Assembly (NCBI GenBank): GCA_012839605.1
Contig: DUNA01000063.1
Span: 1 to 64,000 of the forward strand
DNA length: 64,000 bases
Origin: Bacteroidales bacterium
GTDB lineage: Bacteria; Bacteroidota; Bacteroidia; Bacteroidales; UBA932
Direction: 5' to 3'
A program made the position numbers and the translations under genes. Shown piece by piece: positions 13,763-31,496 of this stretch. The notes beneath the pieces are model-generated. The model ran no database searches and had not been told where the DNA came from. It was given only the letters and a program-made list of their open reading frames with translations. Each line of letters starts with the position of its first letter. Position 1 is the stretch's first letter.

Positions 13763-15100
13763 TTATAGTTGTAAGACGGCGTATGTGATTCGAACATACG
13801 GCGGTCTGTCTGAAAGATTTCCGTTAAAGAGTGTGTTGCGGTACGTAAAATTGTCTACTTCGTATACTTCTCCTTGGTTGGTGCTATAGGAGTATGTGGG
13901 AAGAATCCACAAGTTGTCCTTTTCTGCGAACTCTTGTTTCTTTAACAATTCTTGAATGTAAGAGGTAATCTCGTACGTATACTCCCAGTGGGTTCTGTTC
14001 ATGGTACCGCCATGGTTTTCCTGATTCACTTCCCGCAGGGGTCTGTGGTATACAAGGGTGTCTTTATCTACCCACGTACAAGGAAACAGTTTTTCCGGAG
14101 CGTTGTCAACGGCCGTGTAATCTCCGTCTTGGGGAATGGGAACGGGCATGACAAGTTGCGCTCTGGACACCAGCAGTTGGCTGGTTTGTATAGGTGGAAC
14201 TTGCTGGTCACCCCAGCTTTTTATTTGTTTTGCCAAAGCGGCAGCGTCCAGGCACGGCTTCACACCTGCCAATCCTTCGTAGTACAGGGCAGAGGCCGGC
14301 TCTTTTGTAGCCAGGTGGGATGATTCGTGTGATGATATATTATAATAGGTGTTGTAGATATTGAAGAAATAGGTAATCAAGCTGTCGCCACCTTCTGACT
14401 TGTAGTTGAGGTACAAGTTTGCCTCTTCCATATCCAAGTAGTTGATTCTGCCACCCGGTTCTGTGCCTTTATACGGTTCTGTTGTAAAGTAAAGGCCTTT
14501 AAACCGTTTTGCAAATTCGTCCGGGTTGACTCTTTCTGCAGAATCTGCTTGTAACAATTCGTAAGCAAAGGATTTTTTGAATTCCAAGTACAACGTGTCG
14601 CCACCCAGATAGATATAGCCCGGTTTGTTCACAGGGATGGGATCAATGAAGTCTTCCGAGAAGGAATTGTGGTATACGCTCAAATGGTCTAAATCCTTTA
14701 TCAATTTATAGACGTAGACGTTTTGCGGAGTGTATCTGTCTTGTTCTTGGAAAATAGTACGACCGCTCAATGGAATGTGAACGAACATGTTTTCCACAAC
14801 AGGATCTTTTCCGTATTCTGTCTGGTAAGCGTAGGGAGCTATTTGAATAACGGAACTGCTTGAGGTTTTTCCAAAAAGCGGAGTGTTCAGCGATCCAAAT
14901 TCTATGTACGGAGGGGAAGACATATTCAGGCTGTCTGCTGTGGCCGTATACATGGGCGCTTCAAAGTCTGCTGTATAAATGTGGATGATTTGATTGGCGG
15001 GCACCAAGTCCGATCCCATACGGTTGTCTACCGTGATGCAGGAGCTGGTATGTACTAAGAAAAAAGCAGCCAAAAATAGGCTGCGGGGTCTTAACTTCAT
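13763..15100 (-). CDS. DUF4270 family lipoprotein
   Basis: Lipobox-like HTSSC; GSDLVPANQIIHIYTADFE; typical neighbour of the GT5-like gene in Bacteroidota. Confidence 0.8.
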   Translation of the reverse strand: MKLRPRSLFLAAFFLVHTSSCITVDNRMGSDLVPANQIIHIYTADFEAPMYTATADSLNMSSPPYIEFGSLNTPLFGKTSSSSVIQIAPYAYQTEYGKDPVVENMFVHIPLSGRTIFQEQDRYTPQNVYVYKLIKDLDHLSVYHNSFSEDFIDPIPVNKPGYIYLGGDTLYLEFKKSFAYELLQADSAERVNPDEFAKRFKGLYFTTEPYKGTEPGGRINYLDMEEANLYLNYKSEGGDSLITYFFNIYNTYYNISSHESSHLATKEPASALYYEGLAGVKPCLDAAALAKQIKSWGDQQVPPIQTSQLLVSRAQLVMPVPIPQDGDYTAVDNAPEKLFPCTWVDKDTLVYHRPLREVNQENHGGTMNRTHWEYTYEITSYIQELLKKQEFAEKDNLWILPTYSYSTNQGEVYEVDNFTYRNTLFNGNLSDRPPYVRITYAVLQL

Positions 15101-15924
15101 TTGATACCTGATATTTGGTCGTAAAAGTTATTGTAATCTGAAAGGTATGTGCTGTCCGGTACTTGCGGGTCCACATAGGGCAAGATTGGGACTTTCCTTT
15201 CTTTGACGTATGTTTCCAGTTTTGAATCTATTTGTGGTGCGGCCATGACGATTCCGTCTGCATATTGAACAGCCGTTTTGGCTAGGTGCAATGCCGTAGG
15301 ATCTTCCAACCATTCCATATCTTTTGTTTTCAATCCCGGTGCCATGGCTTTGTCGCGCATAGATTTATTAAAAGTTTCCGTAGTAAGGTCGTTGTATAGC
15401 GACACCACTACTCGTGTTTTTGCAAAGAGTGGGTCGTCGCGGTATGCCTTTTTCAAATACATAGGAAGCAGGTGGCTGAGCCAGCCGTGGCAATGTACTA
15501 TAGTAGGCATCCAACGCAGCTTCTTTACTGTCTCCAGTACACCACGAGCAAAAAATATGCCTCGTTCGTCGTTGTCTTCAAAAAATTGGTCGTCTTCGTT
15601 GCGGTAAAGCAATTTCCTTTGGAAGTAATCTTCGTTGTCAATAAAATAGACTTGCATACGGGCAGCCGTGATAGAGGCTACCTTAATAATTAAGGGACGG
15701 TCTATTTCGTTTATGATAAGATTCATTCCGGAAAGCCGGATGACTTCATGAAGCTGATTGCGACGTTCGTTGATGCAACCGTATTTGGGCATGAACAAAC
15801 GTATTTCCCCACCCGCCTCTTGAATTGCCTGCGGCAGATGACGGCCAATGTGTGACATATCCGTCTGTGGCAGGAACGGGAAGATTTCTGAACTCACATA
15901 AAGGATTTTTTTTCTTTTGGCCAT
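15097..15924 (-). CDS. Glycogen/starch synthase N-terminal (GT5) domain protein, short form
   Basis: KILYVSSEIFPFLP...HIGRHLPQAIQEAGGEIRLFMPKYG; HCHGWLSHLLP. Only ~275 aa, lacking a C-terminal GT-B half. Confidence 0.8.
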   Translation of the reverse strand: MAKRKKILYVSSEIFPFLPQTDMSHIGRHLPQAIQEAGGEIRLFMPKYGCINERRNQLHEVIRLSGMNLIINEIDRPLIIKVASITAARMQVYFIDNEDYFQRKLLYRNEDDQFFEDNDERGIFFARGVLETVKKLRWMPTIVHCHGWLSHLLPMYLKKAYRDDPLFAKTRVVVSLYNDLTTETFNKSMRDKAMAPGLKTKDMEWLEDPTALHLAKTAVQYADGIVMAAPQIDSKLETYVKERKVPILPYVDPQVPDSTYLSDYNNFYDQISGIK

Positions 15925-16000
15925 AATCTTTTTTCTCTTGTTTAATCATACAAAGATAACTAAAATCTTAGACTTTTCCTTATCTTTGAAATTCGCAACC

Positions 16001-16891
16001 ATGATACAGCAAGATAAAAGCATTATAAATCAGCAGCTTGTACAGTCTTACCTGTCTTCTGTAATCAGTATAGCGCTGGTGTTGCTTCTGATAGGTATTA
16101 CCGGGTTGTTGGCCATCAACGCACGCACGGTATCTGATTATTTTAAGGAACATTTGGGCGTTACCGTTATTTTGGATCAAGAAACGAAAGATACCGATTC
16201 TACGCTATTGGTCAAGCAATTGTTGGCGGCATCGTATGCCAAAGAAGCCGTACGCGATGCGCACTTTGTGTCTCGGGACAAAGGGGCGCTTGAAATGGAA
16301 GAGTTGTTGGGGCCGGATTTTTTAGACGTTTTTGAATACAATCCCTTACCGGCATCTGTAGAGTTGAAGCTGCGTGCCTCTTACGTTCACAACGACAGCA
16401 TCATGAAGCTGGAGCAGAGTTTGGCGCGTTTGCCGTTTGTGGAAGAGGTGACGTATCAAGCTCCTTTGATATCTTTAATCAACAGGAATCTGCGGAATTT
16501 GGGCTGGATTTTGGGAGTCATAACGCTTGTCTTGCTTGTGATTTCTTTTGCTCTCATACACAACACCATCAGGTTGTCTGTTTACGCCAGGCGTTTTACC
16601 ATTTATACCATGCGCCTGGTAGGAGCCACCAAGCGGTTTATACGACGACCGTTTATGGCACAGGCCGTCGTACAAGGGTTCTTGTCTGCTCTGTTGGCCA
16701 TTTTGCTTCTTATGGGAGGGCTCTATTTGTTGCAACGTGAATTTCCAGGTATACTTATGTTTATATCGCGAGAGATGTTTCTTGTAGTGTTAGGAAGTAT
16801 GGTGGCCATGGGAATTGTTTTGTGCCGGTTGTCCACATTTTTTGTAGTCAACAAGGTAGTAAAATTAGAAACCTCTGCATTTTATTATTAG
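16001..16891 (+). CDS. ftsX: Cell division protein FtsX-like permease
   Basis: Four-TM topology with large extracellular loop; IRLSVYARRFTIYTMRLVGAT motif. Confidence 0.88.
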   Translation: MIQQDKSIINQQLVQSYLSSVISIALVLLLIGITGLLAINARTVSDYFKEHLGVTVILDQETKDTDSTLLVKQLLAASYAKEAVRDAHFVSRDKGALEMEELLGPDFLDVFEYNPLPASVELKLRASYVHNDSIMKLEQSLARLPFVEEVTYQAPLISLINRNLRNLGWILGVITLVLLVISFALIHNTIRLSVYARRFTIYTMRLVGATKRFIRRPFMAQAVVQGFLSALLAILLLMGGLYLLQREFPGILMFISREMFLVVLGSMVAMGIVLCRLSTFFVVNKVVKLETSAFYY

Positions 16892-16896
16892 CTATT

Positions 16897-17172
16897 ATGA
16901 AGAAACAACAGATACATAAAAAAGAAAGAGAGAAATCGTTTGCTCTTCCAAGAAGGAACGCTTGGATGTTGGTAGGCACAATGGTTGTCATAGCGTTGGG
17001 ATTTGTGTTGATGGCCGGGGGCGGATCTAAGGACCCCGATGTCTTTGCCGGAGAAACGCTCTTTAGTTTTAGAAGGATGGTGGTGGCTCCCATACTCGTA
17101 TGCGGGGGTTTTGTCTATGGTGTGTATGCCATCATGCGCATAAGAAAAGAGAAAGACAATGAGCGCACTTGA
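16897..17172 (+). CDS. DUF3098-like two-TM membrane protein
   Basis: NAWMLVGTMVVIALGFVLMAGGGSKDPDVF pattern, located between ftsX and uppP. Confidence 0.8.
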   Translation: MKKQQIHKKEREKSFALPRRNAWMLVGTMVVIALGFVLMAGGGSKDPDVFAGETLFSFRRMVVAPILVCGGFVYGVYAIMRIRKEKDNERT

Positions 17173-17962
17173 AGCCTTTCTTTTAGGCCTTGTACAGGGA
17201 TTGACGGAATTCCTTCCCGTGAGCAGCAGCGGCCACCTTGTGATTGGTAAGGCACTCTTTGGTATTGAGTTGGAGGATGCTTCTTTTGAGATTATTGTAC
17301 ACATTGCCACGGCCTTGAGCATTGTAGTTGTGTTTAGGCGGCAGATTTGGGAAATGATTGCAGATACAGTACGTTTTCGCAAGACAGAAGCTACTGCGCT
17401 TACATGGCGTGTGTTGTTTTCTGCTTTGCCGGTACTTGTGGTAGGGCTCTTTTTCAAGGATCGGATAGAGATCTTTTTTACAACCAAAGGAACGGCTGTG
17501 GTGGGGTGGATGTTGTTGTTGACTGCCGTTTTGTTGGGTTTGGCTCATTGGCTTTCCGTAAGAAGGCAGAAAACGGGCAAGACGCATCCCATTAGGTTTT
17601 TGGATGCGTTTGTTATAGGTGTGGCGCAGGCGTGTGCCGTCATGCCCGGACTTTCCAGGTCCGGTGCCACCATTGCTACCGGGTTGATGTTGGGCGTGGA
17701 GAAAGACAAAGTGGCGCCTTTTTCTTTTCTTATGGTTTTGATACCCATTTTGGGACAGGCGTTTTTAGGCATTGTGGGCGGAGAGTTTACGCCGGCTGCC
17801 ACGGGCCTTTCCGTAACAGCTATGGGGATAGGTTTTGTTACGGCTTTTGCATCGGGGTGGTTGGCTTGTCGCTTTATGTTGGCATTGGTGCGTAATATGA
17901 AACTTACTTGGTTTGCCGGATATTGTTTGTTGGTAGGCTTGGCGTCTGTGTTGTTTCTGTAA
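17159..17962 (+). CDS. uppP: Undecaprenyl-diphosphatase
   Basis: LGLVQGLTEFLPVSSSGHLVIG; MPGLSRSGATIATGL. Confidence 0.96.
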   Translation: MSALEAFLLGLVQGLTEFLPVSSSGHLVIGKALFGIELEDASFEIIVHIATALSIVVVFRRQIWEMIADTVRFRKTEATALTWRVLFSALPVLVVGLFFKDRIEIFFTTKGTAVVGWMLLLTAVLLGLAHWLSVRRQKTGKTHPIRFLDAFVIGVAQACAVMPGLSRSGATIATGLMLGVEKDKVAPFSFLMVLIPILGQAFLGIVGGEFTPAATGLSVTAMGIGFVTAFASGWLACRFMLALVRNMKLTWFAGYCLLVGLASVLFL

Positions 17963-17964
17963 AT

Positions 17965-18747
17965 ATGAGGAAAACGGGAGATTATTATTTTGTGTCCGAT
18001 GTGCACCTTGGCTTGAAGGTGGGCGATTCTATAGCTAGGGAGCGGCATTTTATAGCGTTTTTGGAAGGACTGGAAGAAGGCACAAAAGGGCTGTTTCTGC
18101 TGGGAGACATCTTCGATTTTTGGTACGAATACAAACACGTGATTCCAAGAGGGTATACGCGTGTGCTGGGGGCTTTGGCCGGAGTGGTTGACAGGGGTGT
18201 TCCCGTTCATTTTTTTCCGGGAAACCATGATTTGTGGACATTTGGATATTTAGAGCACGAAGTGGGTATGCAAGTACACAGGGATCCCTTGCATATCTGT
18301 TTGGATGGAAAGAACTTTCTGTTAGGTCACGGTCACAGAATGGGTACGTATCCATGGAAAAGCAGGATGTTGCACAACATGTTTCACAGCCGCTTTTTGC
18401 AAAAGACATTTAGTATGCTGCACCCTCGTCTTGCTTTTGCTTTGGCGGAAAAATGGTCTTTGTGCAACAGGAAGAACGGATCCGCATATGCTTTTAAAGG
18501 CGTGGAAGAACCCACGTATTTGTATGCGGCATCTTATGACAAGCCGATAGATTATTGTATTACCGGTCATTTACACACGTCGGTTCGCCTGGCATTGCCC
18601 GATGGCGGGGAGTGGATTGTTTTGGAAGATTGGCTTTCAACGGGTAGCGGCCCGGGTGCCGTGCGGGGAGATGTTGGGATCTTTGGGGGGACCGAACAAG
18701 GAAAAGTACAAGTAGTAAAAGCGGCCGTCGTGGTACATCAAGACTAA
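17965..18747 (+). CDS. lpxH: UDP-2,3-diacylglucosamine diphosphatase-like metallophosphoesterase
   Basis: FVSDVHLG, LGDIFDFWYEY, FPGNHD, GHGHRMG, TGHLHT metallophosphoesterase motifs. Confidence 0.85.
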   Translation: MRKTGDYYFVSDVHLGLKVGDSIARERHFIAFLEGLEEGTKGLFLLGDIFDFWYEYKHVIPRGYTRVLGALAGVVDRGVPVHFFPGNHDLWTFGYLEHEVGMQVHRDPLHICLDGKNFLLGHGHRMGTYPWKSRMLHNMFHSRFLQKTFSMLHPRLAFALAEKWSLCNRKNGSAYAFKGVEEPTYLYAASYDKPIDYCITGHLHTSVRLALPDGGEWIVLEDWLSTGSGPGAVRGDVGIFGGTEQGKVQVVKAAVVVHQD

Positions 18748-19308
18748 TTCTTCCAACAGCTTGTCGTCCCCGTATTTGTCGTAAGGTTTTTTCATATCGG
18801 CGCCAAAGATGCGTGCCACACCTTGCCAGAACGAGGCTGTTATTCCGCCTCGGTAATTTTTTACCACAGCAAAGGAAGTCATGCCTATTTCTCGGTCAAT
18901 GAGACGTAGCAACATGCGTCCCTGAGAAAAGGTCAATTTACGCAGAGGCGCTTCAAACTCGGCAAACAATTCTCTTTCCGTCTTTTCCAGGAACTTCTCT
19001 TTTTCCCGTGCGGTAAACGGTCGGGAGGCCAGGATGCTGTCGGCTCTGTCCAAGCGCGCCCTGGATTGAAGGGCGTACGGGTAGGCTTTGGAGAAATTGT
19101 GGACCACCATATAAAACTCGCGCCATTCCCTGTCTTTTTTTCTTTTGTCTCTGGAGAAAACATGAAGCGGCGGGATGGAAGAAACAAACAAAGTGTCTCC
19201 GTCTTCTATGACATATCCCATAAGGTGTCCTTGCAACTCTTGAGCCGTAAGAGAAGGTGCAGAGAAAAAGAACAGGCAAAGTGCTGTATACAGCCAACGG
19301 GTTTTCAT
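18637..19308 (-). CDS. DUF4294 family secreted protein
   Basis: Signal peptide; Y.IEDGDTLFVSSIPPLHVFSR; FSQGRMLLRLIDREIGMTSFAVVKNYRGGITASFWQGVARIFG. Confidence 0.85.
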   Translation of the reverse strand: MKTRWLYTALCLFFFSAPSLTAQELQGHLMGYVIEDGDTLFVSSIPPLHVFSRDKRKKDREWREFYMVVHNFSKAYPYALQSRARLDRADSILASRPFTAREKEKFLEKTERELFAEFEAPLRKLTFSQGRMLLRLIDREIGMTSFAVVKNYRGGITASFWQGVARIFGADMKKPYDKYGDDKLLEELVLMYHDGRFYYLYFSLFGPPKDPNISPHGTRAATR

Positions 19309-19361
19309 GGTATCTTTTAGCAAAAGTAACAAAATAGGTATTATTATGATATATTTACAAG

Positions 19362-20420
19362 ATGAAACTCATATTCCTGATTGGCTTGCTGACGCAAGCT
19401 CTTTTTGCAGACTCTTTGGATAGAAGAGTAGAGCAATTGCACGATGTTATTATATCTATAGATACCCATAACGACTTTGCCATGAATTATGCTTTTCCCG
19501 GCATGGAAACGACTGTGGCTAAAGGGCAGGTTTCTTTTGAATTGATGAAAGAAGGGCGGTTGGACGGGGCTTTTTTTGCGGCGTACCAAGCCCAAGGACC
19601 TTGTACAGAAGAAGGGCACGTACAAGCTAAATTTCTAGCTGACAGCATGTTGTTGTCTTTGCACCGGTATGCGGCAGAACATGAGCATCTGGGGGCTGTG
19701 GCGTATTCGGTTGAGGATGTGATGGCTTTGAAAGCGCAAAGAAAAGCAGCCATGCTCCTGTCCATAGAAAATGCGTACTGTATGGGAGAAGACATTTCCT
19801 TGGTGGAGCATTATTACAATTTGGGCGTACGTATGGTGGGTCTTACCCACAACGGCGACAACTGCATAGCAGACGCCGCCACGGATACTACTCGGACGCA
19901 CGGAGGATTGTCGCCGTTTGGACGGCAAGTTATAGAAGAGATGAACCGTTTGGGTATGATTGTGGACGTGTCGCACGCTTCTCGTGAGGCCTGTTTGCAA
20001 TCTGTGGAATGGAGTAAAACACCTATTATGGCCAGCCATTCCGGGGTATATGCCTTAAAACCCATTCCCAGGAATCTTACCGATAAAGAAATCATAGCCA
20101 TAGCTGAAAAAGACGGCTTGATACAGATTTCGATTGGGCGTTATTTCTTGTCCACGTTGCCAAGAGCAGAGGTAGGTATTCCCCATTTGATAGAGCACAT
20201 CAATTATGTGGTTGACCTTGTAGGTATAGATCATGTGGGAATAGGGAGCGATTTTGACGGCGGAGGAGGCATAGTTGGGGTGGAAGATATGGGCAAGATG
20301 AAAGCTATCACCCGGGCCTTGCTGGAAGAGGGATATTCACCCCGGGAAATTGGCAAGTTATGGGGTGACAATGTTTTGCGCTTGCTGGAAGCGGCTCGTA
20401 AATACGCTGAAAGTTTCTAA
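19362..20420 (+). CDS. Membrane dipeptidase (peptidase M19, renal dipeptidase-like)
   Basis: IDTHNDF, VGLTHNGDN, VDVSHAS, ASHSGVYAL, HVGIGSDFDGGGG. Confidence 0.93.
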   Translation: MKLIFLIGLLTQALFADSLDRRVEQLHDVIISIDTHNDFAMNYAFPGMETTVAKGQVSFELMKEGRLDGAFFAAYQAQGPCTEEGHVQAKFLADSMLLSLHRYAAEHEHLGAVAYSVEDVMALKAQRKAAMLLSIENAYCMGEDISLVEHYYNLGVRMVGLTHNGDNCIADAATDTTRTHGGLSPFGRQVIEEMNRLGMIVDVSHASREACLQSVEWSKTPIMASHSGVYALKPIPRNLTDKEIIAIAEKDGLIQISIGRYFLSTLPRAEVGIPHLIEHINYVVDLVGIDHVGIGSDFDGGGGIVGVEDMGKMKAITRALLEEGYSPREIGKLWGDNVLRLLEAARKYAESF

Positions 20421-20425
20421 CAATT

Positions 20426-20456
20426 TTTGTAAATCAGAAATTAAGTTCTATCTTTG
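20426..20456 (+). promoter_or_regulatory. Bacteroidota-type promoter (TTTG, 19-nt spacer, TATCTTTG) ahead of rplP
   Basis: TTTG at 20426..20429 and TATCTTTG at 20449..20456; matches the published Bacteroides -33/-7 consensus TTTG/TAnnTTTG. Confidence 0.75.
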
Positions 20457-20460
20457 CAAC

Positions 20461-20523
20461 CCGCAATTTTAGGGGAAGTGTGCCTTAATAATTTGCGGAT
20501 CAAGGGGTTACGTTTGTAGTCCC
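20461..20523 (+). promoter_or_regulatory. Structured 5' leader of the rplP operon (two predicted hairpins)
   Basis: CCGCAA (20461..20466)/TTGCGG (20493..20498) and GGGGTTA (20504..20510)/TAGTCCC (20517..20523) with a 6-nt loop. Confidence 0.45.
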
Positions 20524-20586
20524 TAACAGAAATGCACCGAAGCAACAATACATAATTTACGTTACGTTAAACGTTAAGGAAAAACA

Positions 20587-21006
20587 ATGTTACAACCAAA
20601 AAAAACCAAATTCAGAAGGCAACAAAAAGGCCGCATGAAAGGTATGGCTCAAAGAGGCAACCAACTTGTCTTTGGGTCATTCGGAATCAAGGCTACGGAA
20701 TCCTGCTGGCTGACCGGACGTCAAATAGAAGCTGCACGTCAGGCAGTAACCCGTTACATGAAACGTGAGGGGCAGCTGTGGATTCGTGTATTCCCGGATA
20801 AGCCTTTTACTAAAAAACCTGCTGAAGTTCGTATGGGTAAAGGGAAAGGTGCTCCGGAAGGATTTGTCTGCCCCGTGACACCCGGCAGACTTTTGCTGGA
20901 AGTAGAAGGTGTTCCCTACGAGGTGGCAAAAGAGGCCCTTAGACTGGGTGCCCAAAAGCTGCCTGTCGTTACCAAATTTGTGGTACGAAGAGATTATGTA
21001 GAATAA
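20587..21006 (+). CDS. rplP: 50S ribosomal protein L16
   Basis: [14 protein letters not shown]...[27 protein letters not shown]. Confidence 0.98.
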
Positions 21007-21018
21007 AGTTTAACAACA

Positions 21019-21219
21019 ATGAAAGCACCTGAAATACGCGAGTTATCTGAAAAAGATTTAATAGATCGTATTGAGGCGGAAAAAGCCAACTTGCTTCGTC
21101 TTAAAATGAATCACGCCATCTCTCCTATAGATGACTTAACACAAATTAAGAAAGCACGCCGCACCATCGCACGGATGCTAACGATTTTAAGTACCGAAAA
21201 AAATGGAAAGAAATCTTAG
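21019..21219 (+). CDS. rpmC: 50S ribosomal protein L29
   Basis: [10 protein letters not shown]...[14 protein letters not shown]...RRTIARMLT; position. Confidence 0.96.
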
Positions 21220-21457
21220 AAAAGAAAGAATAGGACTGGTGGTCAGCAACAAAATGGACAAATCTATTGTAGTTGCTGTGAGAAGAAAAGTAAAACACCC
21301 CATGTACGGCAAATACGTAAACAAAACCACCAAGTTTGTTGCTCACGATGAGAACAACGATTGCAGTGAAGGGGATACAGTACGCATTATGGAAACACGG
21401 CCTTTGAGTAAAACCAAATGCTGGCGTTTAGTAGAAATTATTGAAAAAGTCAAATAG
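21203..21457 (+). CDS. rpsQ: 30S ribosomal protein S17
   Basis: [33 protein letters not shown]. Confidence 0.97.
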
Positions 21458-21459
21458 CC

Positions 21460-21828
21460 ATGATACAGCAAGAATCACGTTTATTGGTGGCTGATAACAG
21501 CGGTGCAAAGGAAGTCCTTTGTATTCGCGTTTTAGGCGGCACAAGACGTCGCTATGCCCGAATTGGCGATACGATTGTGGTTAGTGTCAAGAGTGCGGTT
21601 CCCGGTGGCGGAGAAGCCAAAAAGGGAACCATTTCCAAAGCTGTGGTGGTAAGAACCAAGAAAGAAATCCGTCGTCCGGACGGATCGTATATACGCTTTG
21701 ATGACAACGCTTGTGTTCTGTTGAGCGCCACCGGTGAATTGCGCGGTACGCGTATTTTTGGACCGGTAGCACGAGAACTCAGGAGTCGTTATATGAAAAT
21801 TGTATCACTTGCCCCCGAGGTATTATAA
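21460..21828 (+). CDS. rplN: 50S ribosomal protein L14
   Basis: [37 protein letters not shown]. Confidence 0.98.
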
Positions 21829-21839
21829 GAATAGGTAAT

Positions 21840-22163
21840 ATGAGCACAAAATTGCACATTAAAAAAGGAGATACGGTATTCGTCAATACCGGGGAAGACA
21901 AAGGAAGAACCGGGAGGGTACTGGAAGTACGTCCGGCTGAGAAAAGGGCTATTGTGGAAGGTGTGAATTTGATTAAAAAGCACACCAAACCTTCTGCAAG
22001 ACATCCCCAAGGAGGCATTATAGAACAAGAGGCCCCTGTACATATTTCCAATTTGCAGGTAGTAGATCCTGTAAAAGGCGGTCCAACACGCATAGGACGC
22101 CGTTTGAACGACAAGGGCAAATTGGTACGTTACGCAAAAAAATCGGGAGAGGAGATTAAATAA
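21840..22163 (+). CDS. rplX: 50S ribosomal protein L24
   Basis: [35 protein letters not shown]. Confidence 0.97.
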
Positions 22164-22768
22164 TGGCAAAAGCAGATAAAAAAGAAAAGGCAACCCCTGT
22201 AGTATCTACGGGTTATGTGCCGTCCCTGCAAAAGAAATACAAAGAAGAGATTGTTCCCAAGTTGATGAAAGAATTTGGGTATACATCTGTTATGCAAGCC
22301 CCCCGATTGGATAAAATTGTGTTGAATGAAGGTGTGGGAGCTGCCGTTGCAGACAAGAGATTGATTGAAACAGCGCAACAGGAACTGACTTTGATTGCCG
22401 GACAAAAAGCTGTACAAACGGTGTCCACCAAAGACGTTTCCAACTTTAAATTGCGTAAAGGCATGCCCATTGGCGTAAAAGTGACGTTGCGTGGTGCTAA
22501 GATGTATGAATTTTTGGACCGTTTGATTGCTATAGCCTTGCCCCGTATCAGGGACTTTAAAGGCATAGCGGAGAAATTTGACGGCCGTGGAAATTATACA
22601 TTAGGTATTAAGGAACAGATTATTTTCCCCGAGATTGATATAGATAAAATCTCTAAAATCATGGGTGTGGAAGTTACGTTTGTGACGAACACCAATGACG
22701 ACAAACAAGCGTATGCTTTGTTAAGGGAATTTGGATTACCGTTTAGAAACATAAAAAAAGTACAATAG
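22163..22768 (+). CDS. rplE: 50S ribosomal protein L5
   Basis: [19 protein letters not shown]...[26 protein letters not shown]. Confidence 0.97.
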
Positions 22769-23038
22769 ATGGCAAAGGAATCAATGAAAGCCCGCGAAGT
22801 GAAGCGTGCCCGTATGGTAGCCAAATATGCAGAGAAGAGGAAGGCCTTGAAAGAGGCAGGTGATTGGGAAGGTCTGGCAAAGTTGCCCAGAAATTCCAGC
22901 CCCGTACGTTTGCATAACCGCTGCTCCATAACAGGCAGACCCAAAGGGTACATGCGCAAGTTTGGCGTTTCCAGGATTCAGTTCAGGGAAATGGCAAGCC
23001 ACGGCTTGATACCCGGTGTGCGCAAAGCAAGCTGGTAA
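22769..23038 (+). CDS. rpsN: 30S ribosomal protein S14
   Basis: [38 protein letters not shown]. Confidence 0.97.
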
Positions 23039-23045
23039 TTAAGGA

Positions 23046-23077
23046 CCGGTCGGGAGACCGGCTATACATATTTTTTT
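23046..23077 (+). promoter_or_regulatory. Hairpin followed by U-tract in the rpsN-rpsH gap (possible attenuator or regulatory element)
   Basis: CCGGTC-GGGA-GACCGG (23046..23061), then TTTTTTT at 23071..23077, about 9 nt after the stem. Confidence 0.4.
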
Positions 23078-23129
23078 ATTGGATATCGGGCAATTTATTG
23101 TCGAAATCAAATTTTTAAAAACTTTTATC

Positions 23130-23525
23130 ATGACTGATCCAATAGCAGATTATCTGACAAGGATTCGTAATGCGGTGCAAGCAGGACATAAAGTCGTAGA
23201 GATTCCCGCATCGAGGGTAAAAACGGAACTCACCCGTATTTTACATGAAAAAGGTTACATCCTCAGCTACAAAATTGAAGAAGGAAAACCTTTCAATACC
23301 ATTAAAATCGCTCTGAAGTATCATCCCGATACAAAACAGCCGGCCATCAAGAAACTGGAAAGAGTTTCGCGCCCGGGCTTGCGTCGTTATACAAAAGCAG
23401 ACGACTTGCCGCGTGTTTTGAACGGGTTGGGAATAGCGGTTATTTCCACATCTAAAGGCATCATCACCGACAAAGAAGCAAAAACGCTGAGAGTAGGAGG
23501 TGAGGTTATGTGTTACGTATATTAA
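23130..23525 (+). CDS. rpsH: 30S ribosomal protein S8
   Basis: MTDPIADYLTRIRNAV; RRYTKADDLPRVLNGLGIAVISTSKG. Confidence 0.97.
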   Translation: MTDPIADYLTRIRNAVQAGHKVVEIPASRVKTELTRILHEKGYILSYKIEEGKPFNTIKIALKYHPDTKQPAIKKLERVSRPGLRRYTKADDLPRVLNGLGIAVISTSKGIITDKEAKTLRVGGEVMCYVY

Positions 23526-23538
23526 TAAATAGAACAAT

Positions 23539-24099
23539 ATGTCACGAATAGGAAAACTCCCTGTAAACCTGCCAAAAGGTGTGAGTATAGACATTGACGA
23601 GCACAATTTGGTTACGGTGAAAGGCCCTCTGGGAACGCTTGTGCAAAAAGTGGATCCCGATATCAAAATAAAGGTAGAGGGAACCGAGCTTACATTTGAA
23701 CGTCCTACAAATCAGCCCAGACATAGATCTTTGCACGGACTCTACCGCTCATTGATCAACAATATGGTAATTGGTGTTTCAGAAGGATATACCATCAAAC
23801 AGGAACTGGTGGGCGTAGGATACCGTTTGGAAGTCAAAGAACAACTTTTGGAATTCAACTTAGGGTATTCGCATGAAATCCACTTTATGCTTCCCGACGA
23901 GGTGAAAGCCTCTGTGGAAGTAGCACGTAGAGGGGCCAACCCCATACTCACGTTGACGAGCTATGACAAACAGCTGTTGGGAACAGTAGCTGCCAAAATC
24001 CGCTCGCTGCGCAAGCCTGAACCTTATAAAGGCAAGGGTATTAAGTTTGTAGGAGAAGAAATCCGCCGCAAAGCCGGAAAATCGGCAGGTGCTAATTAG
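23539..24099 (+). CDS. rplF: 50S ribosomal protein L6
   Basis: [14 protein letters not shown]...[30 protein letters not shown]. Confidence 0.98.
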
Positions 24100-24113
24100 T
24101 AGGAGGTAGTATT

Positions 24114-24476
24114 ATGGCGTTAACAAAACAAGCAAGAAGACAACGGATAAGATACCGCATACGCAAGCGGATATCCGGAACTCCTGAACGTCCCAGAATG
24201 GCGGTATACAGGAGCAACAAACAGATATACGTGCAATTCATTGACGATACAACAGGAACAACACTGGCACAAGCGTCTTCAAAAGATGCGTTGTTGGCAG
24301 AAGATATAAAAGGAAAAACTCCGGTTGAGGCAGCTGCCTTGGTAGGCAAATTGGCTGCAGAACGGGCGTTGGAAAAGAATATTTCCGTTGTCTCTTTTGA
24401 TAGAGCAGGGTATCTTTTTCACGGAAGAGTTAAAAGTTTAGCAGATGCTGCCAGAGAAGGCGGTCTTAAATTCTAA
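24114..24476 (+). CDS. rplR: 50S ribosomal protein L18
   Basis: [38 protein letters not shown]. Confidence 0.97.
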
Positions 24477-24482
24477 AAGGAT

Positions 24483-25001
24483 ATGGGTAACATAAAAGCA
24501 AAAAAAGTTAAAGCTGCAGATCTTGATTTGAAAGACCGGCTTGTAGCTATCAAGCGAGTCACCAAAGTAACAAAAGGCGGTCGCAATTTTACATTTACCG
24601 CTGTTGTTGTGGTAGGCGATGAAAAAGGAGTGGTAGGATACGGTCTGGGTAAAGCAGGTGAAGTAACATCTGCCATATCCAAAGGAATAGAAGAGGCAAA
24701 GAAGAATTTGTACCGTGTTTCCCTTCTTGGTGAAACCATTCCTCATGAAATCATAGGAAAATTTGGAGGAGCACGTGTCTTTATGAAACCGGCAGCCCCG
24801 GGAACGGGTGTAATAGCCGGAGGTGCCATGAGGGCTGTGTTTGAATCTGTAGGTATAAACGACGTATTGGCCAAATCTCAAGGTTCGTCCAATCCGCACA
24901 ACTTGGTAAAAGCTACGGTGCATGCTCTCTTGGAGATGCGCGATGCTTACGAAGTAGCCGGGGTACGTGGAATTGCCATGGACAGAGTATTTAACGGATA
25001 G
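24483..25001 (+). CDS. rpsE: 30S ribosomal protein S5
   Basis: [42 protein letters not shown]. Confidence 0.98.
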
Positions 25002-25012
25002 GAGGAAAAGCA

Positions 25013-25192
25013 ATGGAAATTTGGAAAATCACACAAGTAAGAAGCAGCAATTCTGCTACAAAACGCCAGATTGCCACCTTGGAAGCTTTAGGACTCCGTA
25101 GGATCAATCACTTTGTTGAAAAAGAAGCTACTCCTGTAATCAAAGGGATGGTGGAAAAAGTACATCACTTGGTTAAAGTAGAAGTAAAGTAA
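25013..25192 (+). CDS. rpmD: 50S ribosomal protein L30
   Basis: Not in the supplied ORF track; reads MEIWKITQVRSSNSATKRQIATLEALGLRRINHFVEKEATPVIKGMVEKVHHLVKVEVK*. Confidence 0.95.
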   Translation: MEIWKITQVRSSNSATKRQIATLEALGLRRINHFVEKEATPVIKGMVEKVHHLVKVEVK

Positions 25193-25205
25193 AGGAGGAA
25201 ACAAT

Positions 25206-25655
25206 ATGAATTTATCTAATTTAAAACCCGCAAAGGGCTCTGTGGCCAAGAGAAAACGTATTGGTCGTGGCGAAGGCTCCGGTCGCGGAGGCCAGTCTAC
25301 ACGTGGACATAAAGGAGCACAATCCAGATCCGGATACTCCCGCAAGCCGGGCTTTGAAGGCGGTCAAATGCCTTTACAACGTCGTGTTCCTAAATTTGGA
25401 TTTAAAAACAGGAGCAGAGTTGAGTACAAAGCCATCAATCTTTCTACTTTACAGGCTCTTCACGAGAAGACAGGTATTTCCGATTTTGATCCAAACGTGT
25501 TTATAGACCAAGGCCTTGTGTCTAAAAACCATTTGGTTAAAATTTTGGGAAATGGAGAGTTGCAAGCGAAATTGAATGTAACCGCACACGGTTTTTCCAA
25601 GAAAGCGAAAGAAGCTATAGAGGCTAAAGAAGGGAAGGCAGAAATTGTAGAATAA
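25206..25655 (+). CDS. rplO: 50S ribosomal protein L15
   Basis: KRKRIGRGEGSGRGGQSTRGHKGAQSRSG. Confidence 0.98.
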   Translation: MNLSNLKPAKGSVAKRKRIGRGEGSGRGGQSTRGHKGAQSRSGYSRKPGFEGGQMPLQRRVPKFGFKNRSRVEYKAINLSTLQALHEKTGISDFDPNVFIDQGLVSKNHLVKILGNGELQAKLNVTAHGFSKKAKEAIEAKEGKAEIVE

Positions 25656-25674
25656 CCCAGAATAAGCCTGAAAA

Positions 25675-26994
25675 ATGAAGAAACTGATAGAAACCATAAA
25701 AAACATTTTCAAGATTGAAGAACTGCGTAATCGTATTGTTTACACAGTTTTGCTTCTTTTGATATACAGGTTGGGCAGCTTTGTGGTACTACCGGGAATA
25801 GATCCCATGCAATTGGCCAACTTGAAAGCGCAGACGACAGGCGGACTGATGGGGTTGCTGAATATGTTTTCCGGAGGAGCTTTTGGAAACGCATCTATAT
25901 TTGCTTTAGGTGTTATGCCTTACATTTCTGCTTCTATTGTCATCCAGCTTTTGGGAATTATGCTTCCCTATTTTCAGCGGATGCAACGGGAAGGAGAAAG
26001 CGGACAACGTAAAATCAACCAATGGACGCGCTATTTGACCATCCTTATTTTGGCACTTCAAGGACCTGCCTATCTTACAAACTTGCACGCCCAGCTTCCC
26101 GAATCGGCTTTCTTGTTGAGCGGGTTTTCGTTTAACATTTTTGCCACCATTGTGCTTATTGGAGGAACCATGTTCATTATGTGGTTGGGAGAAAGAATCA
26201 CCGACCGTGGATTGGGGAATGGTATTTCCTTGATTATTATGGTGGGGATTGTGGCACGCCTGCCCTTTGCTTTTACAGCCGAGGTAGGTGCTCGTATGTC
26301 ACAGACTGCCGGAGGCTTGCTGATGTTGGTTGTGGAATTGATCGTATTATTTTTTATCTTTATAGCTTCCATCGCCCTTGTTCAAGGTGTTCGCAAAGTG
26401 CCGGTGCAGTACGCAAAACGTATTGTAGGCAACAAACAGTATGGAGGAGTAAGGCAGTATATTCCTTTGAAGATTAACGCTGCCGGTGTGATGCCCATTA
26501 TTTTTGCTCAGGCTCTCATGCTCTTCCCCATGATTTTTGCCAGCTTTGATGCCACAAGAGGATTTGCAGCGGTCATGAGCAACATGCAGGGCTTTTGGTA
26601 CAACTTTGTATTTTTCATATTGGTAGTGGCTTTTACGTATTTTTATACAGCCGTAACCGTGAATCCTACCAATATGGCCGATGATATGAAAAAGAACGGA
26701 GGTTTTATTCCCGGTGTAAAGCCCGGTAAGAAAACAGCCGAATACTTAGATGCGGTCATGTCTCGCATTACGTTACCCGGTTCCATATTTTTGGGACTGG
26801 TAGCCATTATGCCGGTCTTTGCCCGTATGATGGGTGTAGATATGCAATTTGCACAGTTTTATGGAGGAACTTCGCTCCTTATTTTAGTGGGTGTTATCCT
26901 AGATACATTGCAGCAAATTGAAAGCCATCTTCTGATGCGTCATTACGATGGGCTGATGAAGACAGGAAGGCTGAAAGGCCGGTCCAACAGATAG
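25675..26994 (+). CDS. secY: Preprotein translocase subunit SecY
   Basis: Ten-TM SecY pattern; LGVMPYISASIVIQLL; RGLGNGISLIIMVGI. Confidence 0.98.
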   Translation: MKKLIETIKNIFKIEELRNRIVYTVLLLLIYRLGSFVVLPGIDPMQLANLKAQTTGGLMGLLNMFSGGAFGNASIFALGVMPYISASIVIQLLGIMLPYFQRMQREGESGQRKINQWTRYLTILILALQGPAYLTNLHAQLPESAFLLSGFSFNIFATIVLIGGTMFIMWLGERITDRGLGNGISLIIMVGIVARLPFAFTAEVGARMSQTAGGLLMLVVELIVLFFIFIASIALVQGVRKVPVQYAKRIVGNKQYGGVRQYIPLKINAAGVMPIIFAQALMLFPMIFASFDATRGFAAVMSNMQGFWYNFVFFILVVAFTYFYTAVTVNPTNMADDMKKNGGFIPGVKPGKKTAEYLDAVMSRITLPGSIFLGLVAIMPVFARMMGVDMQFAQFYGGTSLLILVGVILDTLQQIESHLLMRHYDGLMKTGRLKGRSNR

Positions 26995-27015
26995 AAAAGA
27001 ATAGTTCTTTGTTTA

Positions 27016-27795
27016 ATGAGTTATATTAAAACCGAAGAAGAAATAGCGCTTTTGCGCGAAAACGGGATTTTGGTTTCCAAAACTCTGGCTGAAGTAGGCC
27101 GCCATGTAGCTCCGGGTGTGACGACAAAGGAGCTGGACGCATTGGCGGAAACGTTCATCAGGGACCACGGAGCCGAACCCGCCTTTCTTGGTTATAATGG
27201 TTTTCCCCATTCCTTATGTATCTCTGTCAATTCTGTGGTTGTACACGGAATTCCGAGCGACTACACGTTGAAAGAAGGAGATATTGTTTCCATTGATTGC
27301 GGAACAAAGTATAAGGGTTTTTTTGGAGACTCGGCGTACACATTTGCCGTAGGCCAGGTGTCCGAAGCGGCTGAACGTCTTATGCAGACGACTCGGCAAT
27401 CGCTTTTTGAGGGAATTGGGAAAGCTCTTGCCGGTAACCGCGTTGGCGATATCGGCGCTGCTGTTCAAAGGTACGTAGAGGAATACGGATACTCCGTCGT
27501 GAGAGAGATGGTCGGCCACGGAATAGGGAGCAGGTTGCATGAAAAACCTGACGTCCCCAACTACGGCAGACCCGGCCAGGGAAAACAGTTGGCAGAAGGG
27601 ATGGTTCTTTGCATAGAACCTATGATTAATGAAGGAGGAAGAGGCGTTTATATGGAACGCGACGGATGGACCCTGAGAACGGCTGATAACAGGAATTCAG
27701 CCCATTATGAACTTACAGTTGTGGTTCGTAAAGAGAAGGCAGAACTCCTGTCCACATTTGCCTTTATAGAAAGGCCTAATGATATAGATATTTGA
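27016..27795 (+). CDS. map: Type I methionyl aminopeptidase
   Basis: GYNGFPHSLCISVNSVVVHGIP; SIDCGTKYKGFFGDSA; MVGHGIGSRLHEKPDVPNYG. Confidence 0.97.
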   Translation: MSYIKTEEEIALLRENGILVSKTLAEVGRHVAPGVTTKELDALAETFIRDHGAEPAFLGYNGFPHSLCISVNSVVVHGIPSDYTLKEGDIVSIDCGTKYKGFFGDSAYTFAVGQVSEAAERLMQTTRQSLFEGIGKALAGNRVGDIGAAVQRYVEEYGYSVVREMVGHGIGSRLHEKPDVPNYGRPGQGKQLAEGMVLCIEPMINEGGRGVYMERDGWTLRTADNRNSAHYELTVVVRKEKAELLSTFAFIERPNDIDI

Positions 27796-27821
27796 TAACA
27801 TGAAGATTAAAGATTGACAAC

Positions 27822-28040
27822 ATGCCCAAACAACCTGCCATAGAAAAAGAAGGTGTCATTATTGAAGCATTATCCAATGCCATGTTCCGGGTGGAACTTG
27901 ATAACGGACATGTGATTATTGCACACATTTCCGGGAAAATGAGGATGCACTACATCCGCATACTGCCCGGTGACAGGGTACGGGTAGAAATGTCTCCCTA
28001 TGATCTTACCAAAGGTCGCATTACCTTTAGGTATAAGTAA
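27822..28040 (+). CDS. infA: Translation initiation factor IF-1
   Basis: [63 protein letters not shown]. Confidence 0.98.
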
Positions 28041-28061
28041 TACTATTTAAAGATTACAGTA

Positions 28062-28181
28062 ATGAAAGTAAAAGCATCCGTAAAAAAGCGCAGCGAAGAT
28101 TGTAAGATCGTAAGACGTAAAGGGCGTCTGTATGTTATTTGCAAGAAGAACCCCAAGTTCAAAATGCGCCAAGGAAAATAA
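28062..28181 (+). CDS. rpmJ: 50S ribosomal protein L36
   Basis: Not in the ORF track; reads [39 protein letters not shown]. Two of the four zinc ligands of C+ L36 are absent. Confidence 0.95.
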
Positions 28182-28213
28182 CACGTAACATCTAAAAAAA
28201 AGGAATATACATT

Positions 28214-28591
28214 ATGGCACGAATAGCCGGAGTTGACTTACCTAACAACAAGCGCGGAGAAATAGGACTGACCTATATCTACGGGATAGGACGTAGTTCT
28301 GCCAATTCCATTCTTACCAAAGCCGGGGTTGATCCCGAGATTAAAGTAAAGGATTGGAATGACAATCAGATTGCGGCCATCCGTTCGACAATTGCAGAAG
28401 AATACAAAATTGAAGGTGAACTGCGTTCATCTGTACAAATGAACATCAAACGATTGATGGACATTGGTTGCTACAGAGGCATACGCCATCGTATTGGATT
28501 GCCTGTACGTGGACAAACGACTAAAAACAATGCCCGTACCCGTAAAGGACGTAAGAAAACGGTAGCCAATAAGAGGAAAGCAACCAAATAA
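28214..28591 (+). CDS. rpsM: 30S ribosomal protein S13
   Basis: [45 protein letters not shown]. Confidence 0.98.
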
Positions 28592-28602
28592 CGAGTAAGA
28601 TT

Positions 28603-28995
28603 ATGGCAAAAAAAACGAGTACTTCCAATAAGAAGAAAGTGGTCAAAGTGGATACCCACGGCCAAGCACATATTTCTTCTACATTTAACAATGTGATAGT
28701 TACCCTTACCAACAGCGAAGGACAAGTGATCAGCTGGTCTTCTGCCGGGAAAATGGGTTTTCGCGGTTCTAAAAAGAACACGCCGTATGCAGCACAAACA
28801 GCAGCTGCCGATTGTGCAAAAGTGGCATACGATATGGGATTACGCAAAGTAAAAGCGTATGTGAAAGGGCCGGGTTCGGGACGTGAGTCTGCCATTCGCA
28901 CCATTCACGGAGCCGGTATTGAAGTTACAGAGATAATTGACGTTACCCCGCTTCCTCATAACGGATGCCGTCCCAAGGCACGTCGCAGGGTATAA
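28603..28995 (+). CDS. rpsK: 30S ribosomal protein S11
   Basis: [44 protein letters not shown]. Confidence 0.98.
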
Positions 28996-29020
28996 TGGTT
29001 GACTTTTAAAATTAAAAACG

Positions 29021-29626
29021 ATGGCAAGATATATAGGCCCAAAGACAAAGATTGCACGTAAATTTGGTGAACCCATTTACGGACCTGATAAATACTTTGA
29101 AAGGAAAAATCACCCTCCCGGACAACACGGGACGGTTAGAAGACGTAGAAAAATTTCTGAATACGGCATACAGCTTAAAGAAAAACAGAAAGTCAAGTAT
29201 ACGTACGGACTGTTGGAACGCCAGTTCCACAACTTGTTTAAGAAAGCAAACTCTATGAAAGGGCGTACAGGTGAAAACTTGTTGCTTTTGCTGGAAAGCC
29301 GATTGGATAATATCGTTTTCAGAATGGGGATTGCTCCTTCCAGACAAGCTGCTCGCCAGCTAGTTACACACCGTCATATTACGGTAGATGGCAAAATTTG
29401 CAACATCCCTTCAGCCTTGATTCGTCCCGGATCTTTGGTGGCTGTCAGGGAACGTTCCAAAAACCTTGAGGTCATTCAGGAAAACATTTCACGTACCGTT
29501 AGCAAGTATCCTTGGATAGAGTGGGACGTGGCTTCTGTATCCGGAAAATTTTTGAATTATCCTGAAAGAACAGAAATTCCTGAACCCATCAACGAACAAT
29601 TAATTGTGGAGTTGTACTCCAAATAA
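29021..29626 (+). CDS. rpsD: 30S ribosomal protein S4
   Basis: [58 protein letters not shown]. Confidence 0.98.
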
Positions 29627-29641
29627 TTTTAAACTTTTACA

Positions 29642-30664
29642 ATGGCCATTTTAGCATTTCAAAAACCCGATAAAGTAATTATGCTGGAAGCTACCGATAC
29701 GTTCGGTCGTTTTGAGTTTCGTCCCCTGGAGCCCGGATACGCCACGACTATTGGTAATGCACTCCGTAGGATATTATTGTCCTCACTGGAAGGATATGCA
29801 CTGACACATGTCAGGATAGATGGTGTTGAACATGAATTTGCAACCATTCCCGGTGTCATAGAGAATGTAGTGGATATTGTTCTTAATCTTAAGCAGGTAA
29901 GGTTTAAGAGGATGATTGAAGATTTTGAGGAAGAAACTATTACCGTAACAGTTAAAGGCAAAGAAGCCTTTACAGCAGAAGACATTTCCGGACAACTGAA
30001 CTATTTCAAGGTGTTGAATCCCGATTTAGTGATTTGTCAGATGGAACCTTCTGTTACCCTCACTATGGAACTTCACGTAGGAAAGGGCCGCGGATATGTA
30101 CCTGCAGAAGAAAACAGGATAGAGAACGCACCTTTTGGGTTGATTGCAATGGATGCCATTTATACGCCCATAAAGAATGTTAATTACCTGATGGAGTATT
30201 TCCGTGTAGAGCAAAAAACCGACTATGAGAAGTTGATTCTGGAAGTAACTACAGACGGTTCTATTCATCCGAAGGATGCCTTAAAAGAAGCAGCAAAGAT
30301 ATTGATCCATCACTTTATGCTGTTTTCAGACGAGCGCATTAGTCTGGAATTGCCGGAAGAAGAGAAAGGAGCAGAATTGGATGAAGAATCTTTGCGTATG
30401 CGTCAGTTGCTGTTGACCAAATTGTCAGAAGTAGAGATTTCCGTAAGGGCGCTCAACTGCTTGAAAGCAGCAGATATAGAGACGTTTGCAGATTTGGTTT
30501 CTGTACCAAGACACGAATTGATGAAATTCCGAAACTTTGGGAAAAAGTCATTGTCAGAAATTGATTTACTCATGGAAAACATGAATCTTTCTTTTGGGAT
30601 TGACGTCACCAAGTATAATATTGAAAAGAAAGTAAAGAAGTATGAGACACAGAAAGAAGGTTAA
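29642..30664 (+). CDS. rpoA: RNA polymerase subunit alpha
   Basis: [32 protein letters not shown]-terminal domain [20 protein letters not shown]. Confidence 0.98.
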
Positions 30665-31496
30665 TTCACTAGGAAGGAAAGCCGGACATCGCAAGGCTAT
30701 GATGGCCAACATGGCTTCATCCCTCATTAAACATAAACGTATAGAAACAACAGTGGCTAAAGCCAAAGCATTGCGTGTATATGTAGAACCCTTGATTACC
30801 AAGTCGAAAAATGACACAACGCATTCCCGCAGAACGGTGTTTTCGTACTTGAAAGACAAGGAAGCAGTAAGTGAACTCTTCCGCGTTGTAGCTCCAAAAG
30901 TAGCTGATCGTCCGGGTGGTTACACACGTATTCTGAAAACAGGATACCGTCTTGGAGACGGTGCTGACATGGCCATCATTGAATTGGTTGATTTCAACGA
31001 AGCCGCATTGGCCGGAACAACCAAGAAAGAAGAGAAGAAAGGCACACGTCGCAGCCGCTCCCGCCGCAGTTCAACCGCCGCTCCCGCCGCCGCTGCTGCC
31101 GCCGAAAAAGCTGCTGCCGCCGAAAAAGCTCCTGCCGCTGAAAAAGCTCCTGCCGCCGAAAAAGCTCCAGCCGCTGCTGCTGAAGCCGCTCCCGTCAAGG
31201 AAGCTCCTGCAGAAGAAGTTGCTGCTCCCGCAGAAGAAACAGCTGTCGTAAAGGAAGCTGCACCTGCTGAAGAAGCTGCACCCGCCAAGGAAGCTCCTGC
31301 CAAGAAGGCTTCGGCCAAGAAGGAAACTCCTGCAGAAAAGCCTGCCAAGGAAGAAGCTCCCGTTAAGGAGGCAGCTGCTAAAAAAGCTCCTGCCAAAAAG
31401 GAAGCTCCAGCAGAAAAGCCAGCCGAAGAGGAAGCTCCTGCAGAAAAGCCTGCCAAAGAGGAAACTCCTGCCAAGGAAGAACCTGCAGCTGAATAA
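30642..31496 (+). CDS. rplQ: 50S ribosomal protein L17 with long Ala/Lys/Glu/Pro-rich C-terminal extension
   Basis: [36 protein letters not shown] core (~125 aa), then ~160 aa low-complexity tail. Confidence 0.96.
31080..31490 (+). repeat. In-frame degenerate tandem repeats encoding AEKAPA-type units in the rplQ tail
   Basis: Repeated GAAAAAGCTCCTGCCGC(T/C) 18-bp units, then AAPAEE/PAKKE/EKPAKEE variants. Confidence 0.85.

Follow-up and report, generated by a model that had tools for sequence, protein, structure and literature searches.

The gene order of the S10 and spc operons is among the best conserved in bacteria. Disconnection of ribosomal protein (r-protein) clusters by invasion followed by separation has been described in Gammaproteobacteria and Bacilli (PMC8046335). 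Eckert and Weinberg (2020; PMC7247131) tabulated 20 new ribosomal leaders (r-leaders), including S4 and L13 leaders of Bacteroidia, and the consensus of the Bacteroides primary sigma factor (sigma-ABfr) is TTTG / TAnnTTTG, near -33 / -7 (PMC7366714). We analysed a stretch of 64,000 nucleotides (G000:C62:1-64000, hereafter the window) from a Bacteroidota draft genome of 1.65 Mb (91 contigs, 92.5% completeness), in which the r-protein cluster begins at rplP.

The divided ribosomal protein cluster

In the window, rplP (20587-21006, + strand; Pfam Ribosomal_L16, E 2.5e-52) heads a continuous run of genes on the + strand that ends at rplQ (31496), in the order rplP-rpmC-rpsQ-rplN-rplX-rplE-rpsN-rpsH-rplF-rplR-rpsE-rpmD-rplO-secY-map-infA-rpmJ-rpsM-rpsK-rpsD-rpoA-rplQ (20587-31496). 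The names of map, infA and several small genes were taken from gene order and sequence, with representative members named by NCBIfam. Directly 5' of the rplP head lies an M19 dipeptidase gene (19362-20420, + strand; Pfam PF01244, E 1.3e-91), and the region before it (13763-19332) holds a neighbour module of DUF4270-like, glgA-like, ftsX-like, DUF3098-like, uppP, lpxH-like and DUF4294 genes, of which DUF4294 was named by Pfam and the others by resemblance. A sequence-only reading had put rplP first, behind an M19 dipeptidase gene ending at 20420, as the Pfam matches and open reading frames confirm; the order from rpmC to rplQ, which it took to be complete, is indeed so, with rpmD (25013-25192) and rpmJ (28062-28181) present as short open reading frames. 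The rplQ product (30642-31496) has a long C-terminal tail rich in Ala, Lys, Glu and Pro, and its match to the L17 'sunset' variant model falls short of the cut-off.

The genes from rpsJ to rpsC, which the same reading had reported as missing upstream, are absent from the rplP locus but not from the genome; a search elsewhere found them whole, on two other contigs. The gene rpsC (C86:16953-17726) is the last of the run rplC-rplD-rplW-rplB-rpsS-rplV-rpsC, which starts at C86:13829, 3' of an S58 peptidase gene, and closes with a terminator formed by an eight-pair stem followed by a T run (L001:2296-2322; read directly from the sequence, since the pattern scan lists the other strand only). On a third contig, rpsJ (C58:636-941) is the last gene of rpsL-rpsG-fusA-rpsJ. 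Because rpsJ lies on C58 behind rpsL-rpsG-fusA and the rplC-rpsC run on C86, there is a second break, at rpsJ|rplC, in addition to the predicted one between rpsC and rplP, and the cluster is in three pieces. The earlier reading had placed the rpsC|rplP break correctly and had noticed neither the separation of rpsJ from rplC nor the structured leader described below. The S58 peptidase gene (L004:12400-13587) precedes rplC in this genome; in nine other genus genomes examined the place is taken by carB-carA. The rpsC gene of the window genome encodes a Gly/Arg/Asp-rich tail (L004:17600-17726).

Distribution of the split and its single origin

Sixty relatives were searched with rplP and with rpsC. 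They are separated in each of the 12 other genus genomes and in 17 further genera of the family, the distance being ~274 kb and ~440 kb in two single-contig genomes (G023 and G016, respectively). The dipeptidase-rplP junction recurs in 13/13 genus genomes, where the dipeptidases are 71-80% identical to the window protein, and in other genera (G023, G025, and G030). Adjacent rpsC-rplP was kept in six genera of the family (G019, G020, G021, G032, G033, and G036) and in the other Bacteroidales families in which both genes were found, except for G047, which can be scored as neither split nor intact because its rpsC and rplP are on different contigs. Wherever rpsJ was located, it lies apart from rpsC in split genomes and within ~5 kb of it in intact genomes. 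In a phylum-wide draw, rpsC and rplP were adjacent on one contig in 142/142 other genomes having both, according to two gene tables compared by eye.

A draft of this contig number and completeness would leave room for an assembly join, that is, a dipeptidase contig wrongly joined to the interior of the S10 operon. Against this, the junction is also present in the 12 other genus genomes and in the single-contig G023, and the other pieces of the cluster have their own terminator, promoters, and leaders at their ends and starts. Because the junction is conserved throughout the genus and closed genomes of the family are split, the arrangement is not a misassembly, and we consider the chance of such a join to be negligible. 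Thirteen separately assembled genomes sharing the junction, the closed split genomes, and the conserved promoter and leader all speak for the earlier suggestion of an evolved, functional operon head rather than a random join. That suggestion had treated a split common to relatives as counting against it; the split is in fact the norm in the clade, a trait of most of the family and not a peculiarity of one genome. The split is a real, fixed clade trait. Within a limited set of open-access papers we came across no account of it. In practice, genomes of this clade would be flagged wrongly by checks for misassembly that rely on synteny.

A FastTree tree with 112 rows was computed from a concatenation of 16 proteins encoded in the rplP-rplQ half. 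All 49 split rows fall on one fully supported (100*) branch within the family, and one change suffices to explain them. The intact state is found in the basal members of the family, nearly all other Bacteroidales, and the 142 phylum-wide genomes mentioned above. The fission of the S10-spc-alpha cluster is therefore a derived state of single origin, as opposed to the intact ancestral state, and is lineage-specific; all cluster genes are present, in separated transcription units. Present rpsC-rplP distances and flanks differ between genera, as might be expected had two or more breaks occurred independently in different genera. Such a history is improbable in view of the single fully supported branch and of the features held in common, the leader being shared between genera and the neighbour module by many of them. 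Candidatus Cacconaster equi (L103) falls inside the split clade, and its genus has been assigned to the GTDB family UBA932 (PMC8957277); the family holding the split clade, and with it the window genome, is therefore probably UBA932.

In the phylum sample the rpsC-rplP bond was cleanly broken in this one clade only, and no sampled member has rejoined the halves. The clade offers a natural experiment: its sister genera kept the cluster intact, some relatives have halves that are still close, and other genera have fully separated ones, and in each the new promoter and leader can be read. The stoichiometry of r-proteins after an operon has been cut thereby becomes testable.

Promoter and leader RNA of the rplP operon

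The sequence at 20426-20456 (+ strand) matches the sigma-ABfr consensus (PMC7366714), with TTTG at 20426-20429 (-33), a spacer of 19 nt, and TATCTTTG at 20449-20456 (-7). The good consensus promoter that had been noted just after the dipeptidase is upheld by these exact boxes, which are identical in 13/13 genus genomes. The identity spans 48 contiguous columns of the alignment in all 13 genomes, starting at the -33 box and running through CCCGCAATTT, and is more than chance. The spacer (20430-20448) is likewise invariant in 13/13 genomes, exceeding the needs of a bare promoter, and a further factor may bind there. Intact genomes lack the new head, because their rpsC-rplP gap is only ~22-31 bases. 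The rplP operon is headed by a TAnnTTTG box of its own in the other split genera as well, and the rplC operons carry one too; the boxes were chosen by a script, and a few genomes were read by eye where the script took a later chance match. The rplC-operon transcripts of split genera have a predicted start near CCC and a 5' hairpin. A promoter between rpsJ and rplC was sought in the intact family members and was not found. In six of these (L210, L211, L214, L237, L238, and L239) the rpsJ-rplC gap has widened to 53-131 nt and contains no TAnnTTTG box; in some other families the gap is ~23 nt. We dropped the view that the rplP promoter had been copied from that of rpsL (83% over 40 bp), as the shared part is mostly consensus.

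With a predicted transcription start at ~20460, the rplP mRNA would carry a leader of ~127 nt (20460-20586, + strand), recognized from the genus alignment (A2) and a family covariance model (R1). Its 5'-terminal hairpin P1 (20463-20496, + strand) pairs 20463-20469 with 20490-20496 and, in an inner stem, 20470-20474 with 20483-20487. In the window genus 88% of the P1 cells are paired, and covariation does not go beyond that of shuffles because the 5' arm is nearly invariant. A second hairpin, P2 (20504-20523, + strand), has the arms GGGGUUAC and GUAGUCCC. In an arm-swap permutation test, P2 arms of the same genome paired better than arms swapped between genomes, with only 5 of the 2000 permutations as good; within the window genus alone, P2 gives the only structural signal. 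Further 3' lie an unpaired stretch, GCACCGAAGCAACAA (20534-20548, + strand), near-invariant in A2, and, just 5' of the rplP start, short direct repeats, ACGTTACGTTAAACGTT (20559-20575, + strand), which are invariant in nearly all genus genomes and are spelled ACTGTT in two other genera.

At the family level, the leaders of 17 split-clade genomes align nearly gap-free over 58 nt (MAFFT), and a tail of the form YUGANAAUNAG...UUUA is conserved across genera. The family hairpin equivalent to P1 has a covariation score of 0.396, while shuffles average 0.239 and 0/500 of them reach its value; the structure was hand-chosen from the same sequences on which it was scored, which favours it. The covariation falls when the structure is slid along the alignment, although it is still fairly high at a slide of +1, and a 20-row alignment gave the same picture. 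RNAalifold found no consensus structure in the family leader alignment. Model R1, built from the 17 leaders, was searched against 845 kb of loci outside the training set: the ten best matches were rplP leaders, all at the exact predicted start, and the best match in the intact loci scored 17.4 bits. The window itself was matched at the exact position (20460-20518) and weakly (16.1 bits, E ~2-3), and no leader was recovered from the deepest split group. A match in the intact genome G033 (34.3 bits), at a gene end before an unrelated gene, was taken as chance, and the AT-rich genomes G017, G029, and G045 gave many chance-like matches. With E thresholds of 1 for the window and 0.5 for 13 relatives, Rfam 15 contained no match to the leader.

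A conserved, covarying structure 5' of an r-protein operon, as in r-leaders, is present across genera, and the element may be a ribosomal leader controlling the rplP operon autogenously. Because 5' hairpins also occur on most rplC leaders and some rpsL leaders, where they are small, part of the structure may serve general mRNA protection. One could go further and take the whole leader of this genuine split for a generic mRNA-stabilising hairpin at the 5' end, with no specific ligand. The simple hairpins of the rplC leaders (CCCGCA...UGCGGG) and the small ones of several rpsL leaders fit that explanation, as does P1 covariation in the window genus that does not exceed shuffles; the near-ungapped spacing and conserved tail across genera, the internal-loop geometry, and the homology detected by the model in held-out genomes do not. 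We regard the generic hairpin as a serious possibility, at somewhat under even odds. That the rplP leader constitutes a new class of autoregulatory r-protein leader, arisen together with the operon fission, is a tentative proposal to which we would give close to even odds; if it is true, one branch of the tree can be linked both to a dated rearrangement of the chromosome and to the emergence of a regulatory RNA. The rplC leaders (L004 before 13829, and others), besides the hairpin, share a stretch of strong sequence conservation immediately 5' of the start codon.

Origin of the break and comparison with known systems

The breaks are observed, the tree gives them one origin, and a conserved TAnnTTTG promoter and a structured leader mark the rplP head. 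Building on this, we favour, with a probability of roughly 80%, an ancient fission of the str-S10-spc-alpha supercluster into three units, with an evolved rplP head, feedback through the leader, and invasion by a module followed by separation. The supercluster would have been broken at rpsJ|rplC and rpsC|rplP in an ancestor within one (gut) Bacteroidales family, and the resulting transcription units, rpsL-rpsG-fusA-rpsJ, rplC-rpsC, and rplP-rplQ, kept by all sampled descendants. The primary sigma factor would initiate the rplP transcript, and the leader hairpin with its conserved tail could serve as a site of feedback by one of the operon's own r-proteins and so make up for the co-regulation that the break abolished.

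The rpsC|rplP break may have begun when a module was inserted at that point, the separation coming later. A module of DUF4270, glgA-like, ftsX-like, uppP, lpxH-like, and DUF4294 genes lies 5' of rplP in many split genomes, and in the window the dipeptidase has been added between module and rplP. In three relatives (L068, L069, and L074) rpsC and rplP share a strand, rpsC being 10-15 kb 5' with uvrC and the module in the intervening DNA, and in G014 21 kb separates the two genes. The three close-halves relatives suggest invasion, then separation; all four possible intermediates are nested inside the split clade, and the three could be secondary instead. The ftsX-uppP genes of the intact genomes G020, G033, G032, and G059 are located elsewhere and have neither lpxH nor DUF4294 next to them. 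Doubt about the invasion step arises from the deepest split group, which does not have the module next to rplP, and from the nested position of the close cases.

Like the sigma-ABfr promoters (PMC7366714), the rplP promoter shows the -33 and -7 boxes exactly, at a spacing of 19 nt; the consensus demands less than is seen here, where the spacer too is invariant across the window genus. The leader resembles the r-leaders of PMC7247131 as a structured, lineage-restricted 5' UTR RNA of an r-protein operon with covarying pairs, but none of the 20 tabulated there lies 5' of rplP or is for L16, and the Bacteroidia S4 leader precedes rpsD. The closest parallel for the break is the disconnection described in PMC8046335, in which genes first come to lie between the parts of a broken r-protein cluster and the parts later drift apart; the three close-halves relatives resemble its intermediate state. 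That disconnection runs between operons, whereas one of the cuts described here is inside the classical S10 operon, and further differences are that the present fission occurred in Bacteroidales, maps to one node, and comes with a new leader.
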